64,000 nt of DNA from Methylophaga sp. OBS4 (GTDB lineage: Bacteria > Pseudomonadota > Gammaproteobacteria > Nitrosococcales > Methylophagaceae): positions 1 to 64,000 of the forward strand of contig NZ_JAPDMV010000003.1 of the NCBI RefSeq assembly GCF_026319305.1. The letters run 5' to 3'. The position numbers and the translations under genes are program-made. The notes under the pieces were generated by a model. That model saw only the letters and a list, made by a program, of their open reading frames with translations. It was not told where the DNA came from and did no database searches. Below, piece by piece: positions 3,432 to 61,249 of this stretch; position 1 is the stretch's first letter; every line of letters starts with the position of its first letter.

Positions 3432-4418
3432 ATGCGTTTCTTGCTACATCTGTTTTTGGCTTTGTCCTTGGCTTTATCGGTCACTGCCCATGCCGCTGAC
3501 AAGGATGCAATCGACATTCTGCAACGTATGACAGAGGCAGCAAAAAATCTTAATTACGAAGGGGTTTTTGCTTATCAGTCCGGGAGAAACCTGCAGTCGA
3601 TTCGTATTTATCACCGGGCAGATGCCCGGGGAGAAGTGGAGCGGCTGATTTCGCTTAACGGCGCTGCTCGTGAAGTGATTCGCAGCAATGATATGGTGAC
3701 CTGCATCAATCCTGATGGCAAGAAGGTTAATGTCAGCCGCCGTCCTTTAGGTCAGGGGTTTCCCAGTGATTTACCCCGACGCCTGAATGCCGCGACCCCT
3801 TATTATCAGGTTGAGCTGGGCGGTACTGACAGGGTCGCAGGGCGTAAGGCGTATGAACTGCTGATAACGCCGGTTGATGATTATCGTTATGGCTATCGAT
3901 TCTGGGTGGATGCTGAAACCTATTTGTTGCTGAAATCAGAACTGAGGGCGGGCAATGGTAATGTACTTGAGACCTTTGCTTTTTCATCACTGACAACCGA
4001 TATACACATTCCCGAACACAAACTGAAATCGCAAATGAGTGGCGAGGAATTGACCTGGCATCGAACTGAGTCTGAAACACCGGTTAACATGGCCAGTCAA
4101 CGCGATATGTCTTCGTGGCAGGCACAATGGTTACCGGACGGTTTTGCTTTGGTCGCATTGCAAACCCGTCTCAGGGCCAGTAACGGTGCCAATATAGAAC
4201 AGCGTGTATACAGCGATGGGCTCAGCTCCGTTTCCGTGTTTATCGAAAAAATCCGTGCCCGCCACAATCATTTGCGAGGCGGATCCCGGATGGGAGCTAT
4301 CAATGCTTTCGGCACTATTATAAATTCCCATTTTGTCACCGTGGTGGGTGAAGTCCCGGCTGTTACCGTGGAGAAAATCGGCAACGGACTTGTCTTTGCC
4401 AATGGTGAACAACCATGA
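3432..4418 (+). CDS. rseB: periplasmic sigma-E regulator RseB (MucB)
   Basis: RseB binds the periplasmic part of RseA and senses mislocalised lipoproteins or LPS, protecting RseA from cleavage. The first 22 residues form a classical signal peptide ending AHA. The remaining residues fit the MucB/RseB two-domain fold: a LolA-like N-terminal domain and a smaller C-terminal domain. An AAGGAG ribosome site precedes the start, and the stop overlaps the rseC ATG (ATGA), implying coupled translation. Confidence 0.94.
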   Translation: MRFLLHLFLALSLALSVTAHAADKDAIDILQRMTEAAKNLNYEGVFAYQSGRNLQSIRIYHRADARGEVERLISLNGAAREVIRSNDMVTCINPDGKKVNVSRRPLGQGFPSDLPRRLNAATPYYQVELGGTDRVAGRKAYELLITPVDDYRYGYRFWVDAETYLLLKSELRAGNGNVLETFAFSSLTTDIHIPEHKLKSQMSGEELTWHRTESETPVNMASQRDMSSWQAQWLPDGFALVALQTRLRASNGANIEQRVYSDGLSSVSVFIEKIRARHNHLRGGSRMGAINAFGTIINSHFVTVVGEVPAVTVEKIGNGLVFANGEQP

Positions 4419-20875: not shown

Positions 20876-23317
20876 TTACATAATCTGGCTAGATTTAATG
20901 GGGCCTTCTGTATGTTTAAGTGATTGCTCCATATCGCAAACCACTTTAGTCATTTCCACCACGCTGTCCGGATTCAGCGAAATCGAGCTGATCCCTTTTT
21001 TGACCAGAAACTGGGTGATTTCCGGGTAGTCCGAAGCTGCCTGACCACAGATCCCGACATACTTGCCGGCTTTTTTACAGGCATCAATCGCCATTTCGAT
21101 CAGCATCAATACCGCTTCGTTACGTTCGTCGTAATTACCGGGCATATTGGAATCACGGTCCGCGCCCAGCGTCAGCTGCGTCAGATCGTTGGAACCGATG
21201 GAGAAACCGTCGCACAATTCCAGGAACTGGTCGGCCAGTAGCACGTTGGCCGGAATTTCACACATCAGATACAGCTTGAGCTCATCCTGGCCGCGTTTGA
21301 GGCCGTTTTTCGCCATTAGATCCACCACACGCTGGCCTTCTTCAACGGTACGAACGAACGGAATCATTACCGCAATATTGGTCAGCCCCATATTGTTGCG
21401 TACCATGCGAATCGCTTCACATTCCAATGCAAAGGCATCGGCAAAATCCGGGCTCGGATAACGGGCGGCACCACGGAAACCCAGCATCGGGTTTTCTTCT
21501 TCTGGCTCGAACAAATCACCGCCAATCAGCGCTGCATATTCATTGGATTTGAAATCGCTGAGGCGAACGATAACCGGTTTGGGATAAAAAGCTGCAGCAA
21601 TGTTGGCAATGCCTTCCGCCAGACGTTCAACGTAATAACGTGATGGATCTTCGTAACCGGCGGTCAGCGTGGCGACTTCTTTTTTCTTGTCTTCCGGTAA
21701 CTGGTCGAAACGCAGCAGGGCGTTGGGATGGCAGCGAATGCTGTTGTTAATGATGAATTCCATCCGTGCCAGGCCGACACCACTGTTAGGCAACATCGAG
21801 GTTTCAAAGGCAATTTCCGGATTCGCCAGGTTGAGCATGATTTTGGTGTTTTCCGGTTTGGGAATAGCATTCATGTCGATCTGATTGACATGGAACGGCA
21901 GAATGCCTTTGTAGACGTAACCGGTATCGCCTTCAGCACAGGATACCGTGACTTCATCGCCGGTTTTCAGCAACTGGCTGCCGTTATGGGTACCGACAAT
22001 GGCGGCAATGCCCAGTTCACGGGCAATGATGGCGGCATGACAGGTGCGGCCACCGCGATTGGTAATAATTGCACCGGCACGTTTCATCACCGGTTCCCAG
22101 TCAGGGTCGGTGATATCGGTGACCAGGATTTCTCCCGGTTTCAGTTCGTGCATTTGATCGGGATGCATGATTACACGCACTTTACCGGCTGCAATTCTGC
22201 CACCGACACTTTTACCGGTGGTGATTACATCCGAGTGTTGTTCCAGCACGTGCTTTTCTAAAGCGTGCAAAGCTTTGGTCGACTCTACCGTTTCCGGGCG
22301 GGCTTGTACGATAAACAGTTCGCCGGAATCACCGTCTTTGGCCCATTCGACATCCATAGGTCTGTGATGCCCGGCTTTTTTGCTGTAATGCTGCTCGATG
22401 ATCACCGCCATTTTTGACAGTTCCAGCACTTCATCGTCACTGATACAAAACTGGCTGCGTTCTTCGGCACTGGCTTCAATGTTACGGGTGGTGCCTGCAT
22501 GGGTATGGGCCGCTGCATAAATCATTTTGACGGCTTTGCTGCCCAGCTGACGTTTCAAAATAGGGCGATGACCAGATGCCAGAGTCGGTTTGAATACATA
22601 AAATTCATCGGGGTTGACCGTGCCCTGCACGACGTTTTCACCCAGCCCCCAGGCACCGGTAATCAAAATAACATCACGGAAACCGGTTTCGGTATCAATG
22701 GTGAACATAACGCCGGATGATGCTTTATCGGAACGTACCATTTTCTGCACACCCACCGACAAAGCTATCGCCATATGATCGAAACCTTTATGGCAACGGT
22801 AGGAGATAGCACGGTTAGTAAACAGGGAGGCAAAAATCTGGCGGCAACTGTGTAACAACTCACCGGTACCGCTGATGTTCAGATGCGTTTCCTGTTGGCC
22901 GGCAAACGAGGCATCCGGCAGATCTTCTGCGGTGGCCGAACTGCGCACAGCTACATCCACACTGGGGCCATATTCTGCTTCCATTCGGTGATAAGCCTGT
23001 TCGATTTCGGCGGCCAGATCTTTGGGCATCTCGGCGTCGGTAATCCAGTGACGGATCTTGGCGCCGGTGACGGCCAGGGCTTCAGTGTCTTCCAGATCCA
23101 ATTCGTCCAGCGCCTGTTTGATTTTCTGTTCCAGATCGTTATGACGCATAAAGTAACGGTATGCTTCAGCTGTGGTGGCAAAACCGTTGGGTACCTTGAC
23201 ACCTTTAGGTGCCAGTTCACGATACATTTCGCCAAGCGAGGCATTCTTACCGCCGACCAGCTCAATGTCGTCAATACTGAGCTCTGCAAAAGGACGGATA
23301 TACTGAAAAGTCATCAT
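20876..23317 (-). CDS. ppsA: phosphoenolpyruvate synthase
   Basis: PpsA converts pyruvate, ATP and water to PEP, AMP and phosphate, the entry to gluconeogenesis from C3 units. The 813-residue protein has the N-terminal ATP-grasp domain (VGGKNASLGEM, RSSATAEDLPDASFAGQQ). The phosphohistidine is His427 in GGRTCHAAIIARELG. The C-terminal PEP-binding barrel ends with the GICGQAASDYPE motif. It is monocistronic and preceded by a terminator at 23394-23419. It would feed PEP and 3-phosphoglycerate to the glucosylglycerate genes downstream (inference). Confidence 0.97.
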   Translation of the reverse strand: MMTFQYIRPFAELSIDDIELVGGKNASLGEMYRELAPKGVKVPNGFATTAEAYRYFMRHNDLEQKIKQALDELDLEDTEALAVTGAKIRHWITDAEMPKDLAAEIEQAYHRMEAEYGPSVDVAVRSSATAEDLPDASFAGQQETHLNISGTGELLHSCRQIFASLFTNRAISYRCHKGFDHMAIALSVGVQKMVRSDKASSGVMFTIDTETGFRDVILITGAWGLGENVVQGTVNPDEFYVFKPTLASGHRPILKRQLGSKAVKMIYAAAHTHAGTTRNIEASAEERSQFCISDDEVLELSKMAVIIEQHYSKKAGHHRPMDVEWAKDGDSGELFIVQARPETVESTKALHALEKHVLEQHSDVITTGKSVGGRIAAGKVRVIMHPDQMHELKPGEILVTDITDPDWEPVMKRAGAIITNRGGRTCHAAIIARELGIAAIVGTHNGSQLLKTGDEVTVSCAEGDTGYVYKGILPFHVNQIDMNAIPKPENTKIMLNLANPEIAFETSMLPNSGVGLARMEFIINNSIRCHPNALLRFDQLPEDKKKEVATLTAGYEDPSRYYVERLAEGIANIAAAFYPKPVIVRLSDFKSNEYAALIGGDLFEPEEENPMLGFRGAARYPSPDFADAFALECEAIRMVRNNMGLTNIAVMIPFVRTVEEGQRVVDLMAKNGLKRGQDELKLYLMCEIPANVLLADQFLELCDGFSIGSNDLTQLTLGADRDSNMPGNYDERNEAVLMLIEMAIDACKKAGKYVGICGQAASDYPEITQFLVKKGISSISLNPDSVVEMTKVVCDMEQSLKHTEGPIKSSQIM

Positions 23318-23393: not shown

Positions 23394-23419
23394 AAAAAAA
23401 AGCCGGTCTGAGACCGGCT
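23394..23419 (-). terminator. terminator downstream of the first 35-residue gene
   Basis: AGCCGGTC and GACCGGCT form a perfect 8-bp stem (23401-23408 with 23412-23419) with a 3-base loop. On the minus strand it is followed by a run of eight T. It lies 26 bases past the small gene and ahead of ppsA, so the small gene is a separate transcript. Confidence 0.85.
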
Positions 23420-23444
23420 TTTAGCTGTATATGATAAACGATCT

Positions 23445-23552
23445 TTACGATACGAAGAAGCCGTAAGCGACTAATACGATAAATGCTACTGATAAGATAC
23501 AGATTAATTCAACGAAGTGTTTGTGAATGAATTCTTCAAACTTGTTCTCCAT
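23445..23552 (-). CDS. 35-residue single-helix membrane protein (small protein 1)
   Basis: This 35-codon ORF has a near-perfect ribosome site, AAGGAGGTG, six bases before its ATG. The first 13 residues are charged and His-rich (MENKFEEFIHKHF). Residues 14-33 form one hydrophobic helix with the motif LVAYGF at 27-32. It has its own apparent promoter with an FNR-type box and its own terminator. A paralogue of identical length lies 177 bases upstream. I do not recognise the family. The length and FNR-type control resemble small accessory subunits of respiratory oxidases, but there is no sequence evidence for that. Confidence 0.8.
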   Translation of the reverse strand: MENKFEEFIHKHFVELICILSVAFIVLVAYGFFVS

Positions 23553-23597
23553 GGTGCACCTCCTTATTAGATGAATTGACATTCAATTGTTGTTTGA

Positions 23598-23639
23598 ATT
23601 ATCAGTCACGTCCTGGTGGTGAGCCTTGACCTGGATCAA
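23598..23639 (-). promoter_or_regulatory. FNR/ANR-type class II promoter of small protein 1
   Basis: The 14-mer TTGACCTGGATCAA at 23626-23639 fits the FNR/ANR consensus TTGAT-N4-ATCAA with one mismatch. On the minus strand a GATAAT -10 hexamer lies at 23603-23598, placing transcription near 23591. The box centre (23632.5) would then be at about -41.5, the classical class II activation position. The resulting leader of about 40 bases includes the strong ribosome site. Confidence 0.65.
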
Positions 23640-23678
23640 GAATTGTTCATTTGTTGGTAATTCTGAGCTTAGACCCAA

Positions 23679-23704
23679 TAAAAAAGCCAGTCAAGTGACT
23701 GGCT
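23679..23704 (-). terminator. terminator downstream of the second 35-residue gene
   Basis: AGCCAGTCA (23685-23693) pairs with TGACTGGCT (23696-23704), and on the minus strand a T-run follows. It begins 26 bases after the stop of small protein 2, the same spacing as the terminator of small protein 1. Confidence 0.8.
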
Positions 23705-23729
23705 CTTTCGATATGAATTCAACGGCTGC

Positions 23730-23837
23730 TTATGAGTTGAGAAAGCCGTATGCAACCAACGAAAGCCAGAAAACAGTGAAGCTCAGAATGATGTGTGGAA
23801 ATTTTTCCATCAGCAGCGTATCGATTTTTTTCAACAT
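23730..23837 (-). CDS. 35-residue single-helix membrane protein (small protein 2)
   Basis: This second 35-codon ORF is on the same strand as small protein 1. Aligned without gaps, the two share 12 of 35 residues, including the block LVAYGF at positions 27-32 and the final Ser. The N-terminal 15 residues are amphipathic (MLKKIDTLLMEKFPH) and residues 16-33 form one membrane helix with a Trp. The ribosome site is weak compared with its twin, and no FNR box is seen upstream. A terminator follows. The conserved length, aligned motif and independent terminators argue that this is a real gene; function unknown. Confidence 0.7.
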   Translation of the reverse strand: MLKKIDTLLMEKFPHIILSFTVFWLSLVAYGFLNS

Positions 23838-24161
23838 AACTTTTTACTCGTAGTTCAAATGGTTAAACGATTATTAAAATTATTATTAGCGGGCTAAGAT
23901 ATCAGTTGTTGCGAAATTATGCCAGGGTATTTTAAACATAAAATTCCTTTTATTTTCGAACAGAGGCAGCTGCGCGCCATATCAGTTTGCCGCCCCAGAC
24001 GTTGTTATTGTTGTGATTGATACCAGATACCGGCCTGCTGAGTATTGCCGGACACAAACCAAAAATGGCGACCGACTACCTGATTAAAAATCCGCTTGCT
24101 TAATAGCTGAAAGTTCTCTATATTTTCTCTTCTTGCTATTTTCTCAAAGAGGAAGATACAC

Positions 24162-24770
24162 ATGCTGACTGAACGTGAACAGGATACTTTGGATTTTATT
24201 CGTGCCTATGTCGCTGAACATGGACGTTCACCGCTGGTTTCTGATATTGCCGATGGCCTTGGCATACGCTCGCAAGGTACCACACACCGTTACATTCAGG
24301 CGCTGGTGGATGCGGGGTTACTGGAACGCCATGTAGGCCGAACCCGTGGATTACGCCTGACTGAGCAGGATGAGCAAATCGGTATGGTCTCCGTTAAATT
24401 GCCGGTCATGGGCAGGATCGCTGCCGGACGTTTGATTGAAGCGGTTGCTGATGAGTCTGAAATTGATCTCAGTGAGATGTTCACTGGTAAAGACCGTTTC
24501 GTACTAAAGGTCAATGGTGACTCGATGATTGATAAAGCCATTATGTCCGGTGACTATGTGGTTGTGCAGTCACAGTCGAGCGCACGGCATGGCGATATCG
24601 TGGTGGCGTTGGTGGATGGTTTTGATGCAACGCTGAAAACCTTGCTGCTGAATGATGATGGCACGGTAACCTTGATGCCGGCTAATATCAATTATGAACC
24701 GGTGACCTTGCCGGCTGCGCGTGTCAGAGTACAGGGCATTGTGGTCGGTCAGTTACGCACTTACCCTTAG
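24162..24770 (+). CDS. lexA: LexA-type SOS repressor with atypical DNA-binding helix
   Basis: LexA represses DNA-damage genes and self-cleaves when RecA is activated. The 202-residue protein keeps the Ala88-Gly89 cleavage bond (RIAAG), catalytic Ser121 (NGDSM) and Lys159 (ATLK). The winged helix-turn-helix differs from E. coli LexA: the recognition helix reads SQGTTHRYIQAL instead of SPNAAEEHLKAL. A good GAGGAAG site precedes the ATG. No CTGT-N8-ACAG box is seen upstream. The different helix implies a different operator. A LexA-like repressor acting alongside another LexA elsewhere cannot be excluded. Confidence 0.88.
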   Translation: MLTEREQDTLDFIRAYVAEHGRSPLVSDIADGLGIRSQGTTHRYIQALVDAGLLERHVGRTRGLRLTEQDEQIGMVSVKLPVMGRIAAGRLIEAVADESEIDLSEMFTGKDRFVLKVNGDSMIDKAIMSGDYVVVQSQSSARHGDIVVALVDGFDATLKTLLLNDDGTVTLMPANINYEPVTLPAARVRVQGIVVGQLRTYP

Positions 24771-61173: not shown

Positions 61174-61249
61174 TGGCTCCCCGAGCTGGACTCGAACCAG
61201 CGACCCAATGATTAACAGTCATTTGCTCTACCAACTGAGCTATCGGGGA
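61174..61249 (-). tRNA. tRNA-Asn (anticodon GTT)
   Basis: The minus strand folds into a complete cloverleaf: acceptor TCCCCGA/TCGGGGA, D-arm with AGCTCAGTTGGTAGAGC, anticodon loop CTGTTAA (GTT at 61216-61214) and TpsiC arm with GGTTCGAGTCC. The CCA end is encoded. A terminator follows. Confidence 0.97.

Follow-up and report, generated by a model that had tools for sequence, protein, structure and literature searches.

The window analysed here, 64,000 nucleotides (nt) of Methylophaga sp. OBS4 (contig NZ_JAPDMV010000003.1, positions 1 to 64,000), carries on its minus strand two tandem 35-codon genes, termed A and B, which encode related single-helix proteins predicted to lie in the membrane, and of which the downstream gene, B, is preceded by an FNR/Anr-type operator. 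The two proteins are probably small helper subunits of oxygen respiration. The preferred reading, given a probability of about 45%, is that they would be the aerobic and the low-oxygen isoforms of a single-helix accessory subunit of the cbb3 oxidase, one that would work as CcoM does but without detectable sequence kinship to it. Genomes, contigs and loci are designated by G, C and L numbers, G000 being the host genome (2.55 Mb, 65 contigs, 84% complete). The elements of the locus, from upstream to downstream, are the following.

23896..23925, minus strand: likely promoter of gene A, CTGGCA, 18 nt and TG-n-TATCTT (extended -10), conserved in the genus alignment and with no FNR box
23730..23837, minus strand: gene A, a 35-codon open reading frame (ORF) for a single-helix membrane protein, the presumed aerobic or housekeeping isoform
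23681..23703, minus strand: intrinsic terminator of gene A, GCCAGTC-ACTT-GACTGGC and a T run, conserved in most relatives
23626..23639, minus strand: FNR/Anr-type operator TTGATCCAGGTCAA of gene B, 9/10 specified positions
23598..23603, minus strand: -10 hexamer GATAAT of gene B, 22 nt past the operator, with a predicted start site
23556..23564, minus strand: ribosome-binding site AAGGAGGTG of gene B
23445..23552, minus strand: gene B, a 35-codon ORF, paralogue of A and the isoform with the FNR-type operator
23398..23422, minus strand: intrinsic terminator of gene B, from a consensus scan, not generally conserved in relatives

A first-pass annotation of the letters alone had proposed that the two frames form a duplicated and selected family of small proteins, and had named a lack of homologues with intact frames as its refutation. 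Such homologues were found. Both frames are present with the identical length claimed and align without gaps at 12 of 35 identical positions (23.1 bits). A profile of the two window peptides selects 80 of 17,659 stop-to-stop frames at E≤0.01, distributed over 47 loci (46 taken for their profile matches and the window itself); 68 of these frames form 34 tandem pairs, with the order of the window, and 12 stand alone. With the family profile of 77 distinct members (alignment A1, inclusion E≤0.01), copies are detected in 44 of the 57 genomes of the methanol-consuming Methylophaga family, including 31 of the 36 of high quality; two copies are present in 38 of the carriers and one in the remaining six.

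Selection on the proposed frame, a check that the first-pass annotation had suggested, is evident among these homologues. The ratio of non-synonymous to synonymous differences (pN/pS) in the proposed frame is 0.23 for A within the genus, 0.39 for A in other genera, 0.39 for B within the genus and 0.34 for B in other genera, against 0.83-1.87 in the other sense frames and 0.44-1.81 in the antisense frames. Second codon positions account for 16-17% of the differences and third positions for 49-53%. These counts comprise 66 of the 80 copies, L070, L075, L078, L081, L087, L102 and copies of other lengths being omitted and the remaining lone copies being grouped with A; synonymous differences are near saturation (pooled pS 0.68-0.70). 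Judged by this codon pattern, A and B are real protein genes under purifying selection, with translation predicted. Chance frames, or small RNAs that contain a frame by accident, were also considered, given that a short frame followed by a terminator may belong to a small RNA gene; the low in-frame pN/pS, the concentration of differences at third positions and the open frames in 44 genomes make this explanation barely credible, and the codon pattern refutes it short of a dual-function RNA.

The start of B is preferred at the 35-codon position over the ATG at 23582, which would give a listed ORF of 45 amino acids (aa), because of the strong ribosome site AAGGAGGTG at 23564-23556 and because of the relatives. 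Members measure 34-37 aa, the exception being the G022 row, read as 28 aa. In this single-contig genome the run of A bases behind the start codon of the A gene (L075) is one base shorter, so that the usual ATG falls out of frame; a sequencing artefact is one possibility and a different start another, for which a TTG further in could serve.

Conservation is concentrated in the pattern F13...I17..F20...W24..L27...G31, with Phe-13 retained in 77 of the 77 members, Gly-31 in 76, Ile-17 and Leu-27 in 74 each, Trp-24 in 65 and Phe-20 in 55. The string LVAYGF, to which attention had first been drawn, does occupy positions 27-32 in both window peptides but is not, as an exact string, a conserved element of the family. 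Positions 13, 17, 20, 24, 27 and 31 define a single helix face, and the conservation moment peaks at 100 degrees per residue (nine angles tried), with none of 20,000 position shuffles reaching as high. AlphaFold2 models B as one helix spanning residues 4-34, with a mean predicted local distance difference test score (pLDDT) of 90.5 and a predicted template modelling score (pTM) of 0.46. No charged or His residue lies beyond position 15 in 27 of the 34 A proteins and in 33 of the 34 B proteins. Net charge is near neutral in A (-2 to +3) and mostly acidic in B (33 of 34 at 0 or below), and mean peak hydropathy is 2.08 in A and 2.52 in B. These features suggest a helix that crosses the membrane once, with a charged segment at its N terminus and a single face for packing. 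Tandem intergenic genes for hydrophobic peptides of this size also recall type I toxins under antisense RNA control, and the type I toxin model PepG1 is touched by four of the 77 members, though with E values no better than 0.13. This origin is very improbable, since B is acidic, most copies occupy one conserved site and show strong side-chain conservation on one face, the near-saturated pooled pS gives no sign of a conserved overlapping RNA, and Rfam, searched over the whole window, has no match at the A/B locus. The sole Rfam match above the gathering score in the window is a tRNA (61177-61249, minus strand).

The upstream regions of the two genes are conserved in different ways. In the genus alignment CTGG...TGnTATctT, a promoter of the extended -10 type, stands ahead of A, and the near-invariant palindrome TTGATCYARRTCAA ahead of B. 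All 34 B genes in tandem pairs have a box that begins 73-91 nt ahead of the ATG and agrees with the FNR consensus TTGATnnnnATCAA at 9/10 positions or more; among 9200 random stretches of 160 nt drawn from these loci, the sites themselves included, 3.3% reach this score. Class II activators are centred at about -41.5. As GATAAT follows the box after 22 nt, the operator of the window would be centred at about -41.5 from the predicted start, in class II geometry. Among the lone B genes the box scores 10/10 in G010, where A and B are at different loci, 9/10 in G048 and 8/10 in G035; in G024 and G025 the B-like lone copy has a 9/10 box at a more distant position (-99 and -123, respectively), that of G025 perhaps inside the upstream gene, and the second copy of G050 is too close to the contig start to be scored. 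Among A genes, boxes of at least 9/10 are confined to the related G035, G038 and G054 (L088, L091, L099), where they lie 37-38 nt before the ATG, a position from which they might repress A at low oxygen.

The first-pass annotation had also assigned each gene its own terminator 26 nt after the stop codon. This is correct in the window, where the distance from stop codon to core stem is 26 nt for both A and B, but does not extend to the relatives, in which 32 of 46 first or lone copies, and 6 of 34 B copies, are followed by one (random stretches, 79 of 1840). In a consensus scan for sigma-70 promoters and terminators only the terminator of B is listed (0.7 expected by chance), and neither the A nor the B promoter is listed on the minus strand of the window at this locus. 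The terminator of A, missed by the scan, can be read directly from the letters and came up in the terminator survey of relatives.

A candidate regulator of such operators is encoded in the host genome, which specifies an FNR-type protein with the cluster cysteines CxxCxxxxxC (contig C32, CKECSLYRLC). The motif TTGATnnnnRTCAA occurs 21 times forward and 22 times reverse in G000, symmetric sites counting on both strands, and the reversed control pattern occurs three and four times. Six of the 21 sites opened are promoter-placed and precede, by domain matches, ccoN, hemN, nrdD, ompW, a NarX-like kinase and a pyrroloquinoline quinone (PQQ) dehydrogenase; two of the six, at ccoN and nrdD, are flagged inside short opposite frames. 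The other 15 sit inside frames, probably by chance. A perfect FNR-type box at G000:C3:51208-51221 (L137) is intergenic and lies 181 nt before a PQQ-dependent alcohol/methanol dehydrogenase-type gene; its placement suggests oxygen control of an enzyme of methanol oxidation.

The cco operon appears to share this control. Upstream of ccoN a box of at least 9/10 is found in 28 of 38 stretches (37 genomes with one copy each, two for G000), against 8.1% of 2280 random 400-nt stretches. The A-only genomes G026, G028, G040 and G055, most of which belong to a single clade, have scores of 7-8 at the ccoN copy examined, so that none of the four is boxed.

Distribution points in the same direction, and the co-occurrence with terminal oxidase genes that had been proposed for checking has gained indirect support from the shared FNR operators and from co-loss with ccoN. 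The ccoN gene is detected at E≤1e-10 in 53 of the 57 family genomes, in three of them only as fragments that fall short of the curated cut-off. Every one of the 44 carriers has ccoN, and the four genomes that lack it (G033, G039, G043, G049) are all without the A/B family; the resulting table has a p of about 0.002 with phylogeny ignored (computed by hand, 715/395010). In these four genomes the site beside the phosphoenolpyruvate (PEP) synthase gene is contiguous and the gene missing or decayed. G033 retains, in the right place and behind an A-promoter-like sequence (L172, about 4119-4300), a weak match of 11.4 bits (E 0.022, below inclusion) with an unrecognisable C-terminal half, an apparent decayed remnant of gene A; at the loci of G039, G043 and G049 no profile match exceeds 7.3 bits. 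G024 (1.1 Mb), whose only COX1-family match is ccoN and whose only Crp-family match is broken, has kept one B-like copy.

Co-losses of the A/B family with ccoN probably number two or three. G033 groups with the carrier G040 in the PEP synthase tree (SH-like approximate likelihood-ratio test (SH-aLRT) 99), apart from G039/G043, giving three changes, and with the carrier G028 in the rlmD tree (96), giving two, while a 15-genome concatenation without G040 gives one. In an independent-pairs test over 43 rows, with undetected counted as absent, 0.7 of 2 pairs show the same direction and 1.3 no difference.

If A and B, instead of being subunits of a respiratory enzyme, served as small membrane regulators of a transporter, a protease or a sensor kinase under oxygen limitation, there would be no reason to expect their loss together with ccoN. 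This role, with which standalone genes, own promoter regions, a conserved terminator for A and variable upstream neighbours would agree, is quite unlikely. The rival that the pair serves another respiratory or methylotrophic complex, used and lost with cbb3 (for example cytochrome bc1, NADH dehydrogenase or the methanol-oxidation electron chain), with B still the low-oxygen isoform, is somewhat unlikely. Boxes do precede non-oxidase genes, the PQQ dehydrogenase included, and co-loss cannot tell ccoN from genes lost beside it, but three of the four genomes without ccoN retain another COX1-family oxidase, which ties A and B to ccoN and not to oxygen respiration generally.

Because the FNR-type operator is shared with cco and the pair is lost jointly with ccoN, the cbb3 oxidase is the first candidate partner. 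According to the cbb3 reading, A and B would sit in the inner membrane with the conserved face packed against the respiratory complex. A would be expressed from its own promoter, without an FNR box, and would serve at normal oxygen; as oxygen falls FNR would turn B on, in step with the cbb3 operon, hemN and nrdD, and B would then be added to the oxidase or exchanged for A. The fuller account, in which an ancestral single-helix accessory protein of the oxidase was duplicated, the downstream copy gained an FNR promoter, cbb3 swaps its accessory helix at low oxygen, lineages whose cco operon lost FNR control retained A alone and those that lost cbb3 dropped both, is unlikely taken as a whole. Everything beyond the conserved membrane helix and the FNR-type operator of one copy is inferred; the FNR-type box pattern is strong, and the identity of the partner complex is not.

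Several observations weigh against assignment to cbb3. The genes lie outside the cco operon, with no physical or genetic link to it (the pair is on C64 of G000 and cco on C13), and the operon has its own CcoQ-like frame of 76 aa between ccoO and ccoP, presumably CcoQ, the gene names being taken from recognition. Five B-type carriers (G007, G024, G030, G045, G046) have no 9/10 box at the ccoN copy examined, and the second ccoN copy of G000 is also without a box. Nine genomes have ccoN yet no detected copy of the family, three of them of high quality (G004, G020, G032); at the six sites looked at, the locus is cut by a contig end in G001, G018, G020 and G032 and has no rlmD anchor in G004 and G011, with G052, G053 and G056 outside that count. 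An FNR-type regulator was not found in G033, G039 and G043, G049 having one, so that FNR loss is a partial confounder. The co-losses are too few for a significant tree-based test, and they do not distinguish ccoN from any other gene that these lineages have lost. No sequence relative was found in the PDB although the cbb3 entries 3mk7, 5djq and 8smr were included. Finally, the cbb3 subunits of Pseudomonas stutzeri were more abundant aerobically in one study (PMC10433244), and low-oxygen induction of cbb3 is therefore not universal.

The family apparently has no name. Pfam and NCBIfam give no family for either window protein at E≤1, and over the 77 members the best matches (Pfam E 0.027, NCBIfam E 0.015, PHROGs E 0.008, the last among 25 of 29 families listed) carry unrelated names and were taken as chance. 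No PDB chain matches the family profile at E up to 10, a plasmid collection queried with B returns a lone match at E 6, viral contigs queried with the A-type alignment return none, and the titles and abstract openings of the literature show nothing on this small-protein family. With the 77-member profile at E≤0.01, none of the six genomes of the sister family has a copy. In a class sample of 369 genomes, four of them from the family, 160 show some match at E≤1. The best outside match (G377, E 1.7e-4) lies antisense within a carboxypeptidase-like gene and was rejected as chance; the next, G088, is repeated (E 0.002). A scan of 84,980 species with two short conserved peptide patterns, which for that reason detects close relatives only, places all 12 loci of named close relatives of A in Methylophaga, including M. 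aminisulfidivorans, M. sulfidovorans and M. thiooxydans; these names suggest that the family of the 57 genomes is the Methylophagaceae. As short proteins make deep homology searches insensitive, distant relatives may exist outside the family.

A-type and B-type copies cluster by type far beyond shuffled labels, the exceptions in the tree being G034_A, which falls among the B copies, and seven tandem B copies placed without resolution on the A side. Holding all A copies together is not rejected and fits slightly better (approximately unbiased test, p-AU 0.54); monophyly of A versus B is thus not rejected, yet not demonstrated, 35 columns resolving little. The simplest reading of these sequences would be a duplication before the split of the genera.

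In the window the pair is flanked by the PEP synthase gene (20876-23317) on one side and by a divergent lexA (24162-24770) on the other, both identified by Pfam/NCBIfam matches. Across relatives the site is mostly stable: upstream genes vary and the far side holds a recurring convergent block comprising a HEAT-repeat gene, an rRNA/tRNA uracil-methyltransferase (rlmD-like) and what are presumably cysM, acpS and pdxJ, named from recognition, with domains matched for the first two. None of the neighbouring genes at the relatives' loci hints at a function. The PEP synthase beside the pair (window 20876-23317; L067, L072, L073, L105) is of two very divergent kinds, separated by branches of more than one change per column, as if the site had taken in different versions more than once across Methylophaga species. 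Two copies lie near the ends of different contigs in G035 (L087/L088), G048 (L102/L103) and G050 (L098/L020), and in G051 (L101) a 223-codon frame, whose G048 relative is without a Pfam match, separates A from B; the A-B spacer of these four genomes may be a site of insertions or repeats.

The closest known parallel in form is CcoM, a 36-residue helix described in PMC8267372 and PMC10433244 as a cbb3 subunit required for stability; the latter also calls this 36-aa protein essential for adaptation to oxygen limitation. The family resembles CcoM of P. stutzeri in size (34-37 aa against about 36 aa) and in a single transmembrane helix, predicted at residues 4-34. No sequence kinship with CcoM was seen, no PDB chain matching at E up to 10, with the presence of the CcoM chain among those searched left unchecked. 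PF05032, named with CcoM in PMC9264385, is likewise absent among the ten Pfam families listed for the 77 members. The family also differs from CcoM in comprising two paralogues, one of which bears an FNR-type operator. As far as these sequence comparisons reach, the family is not CcoM, so that it may share the mode of action of CcoM without belonging to it.

A single hydrophobic helix is similarly shared with CydX, a component of cytochrome bd of Escherichia coli (PMC6005532), and with YnhF of the E. coli cytochrome bd (PMC9264385). No cyd model is among the listed Pfam and NCBIfam matches of the 77 members, cytochrome bd genes not having been surveyed, and A and B of the window adjoin PEP synthase and lexA, not cyd genes. 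CydX is usually encoded in the cyd operon. CcoQ is a small single-helix subunit of cbb3 oxidase, and in G000 A and B are not within ccoNOQP. Genes for small single-helix subunits of terminal oxidases are readily overlooked, as they are short and need not belong to the oxidase operon.

With respect to known FNR regulons, the locus appears to combine an operator of the TTGATnnnnATCAA type placed for activation with an FNR bearing cluster cysteines in the same genome. Comparative genomics supplies a defined family of candidates, with FNR as the likely regulator and cbb3 as the possible partner, and makes the function directly testable; pairing frame conservation with operator conservation can reveal tandem paralogous microproteins under split regulation. 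Yeast Cox5a/Cox5b and mammalian COX4-1/4-2 are oxygen-switched isoforms of small cytochrome oxidase subunits, and A and B would follow the same logic of paired aerobic and hypoxic isoforms of one accessory subunit. They differ from the eukaryotic isoforms in their bacterial FNR-type control and in a function that is so far a candidate one. If the cbb3 reading holds, bacteria would tune a high-affinity oxidase through exchange of an accessory helix, a strategy better known from the cytochrome oxidase of eukaryotes.
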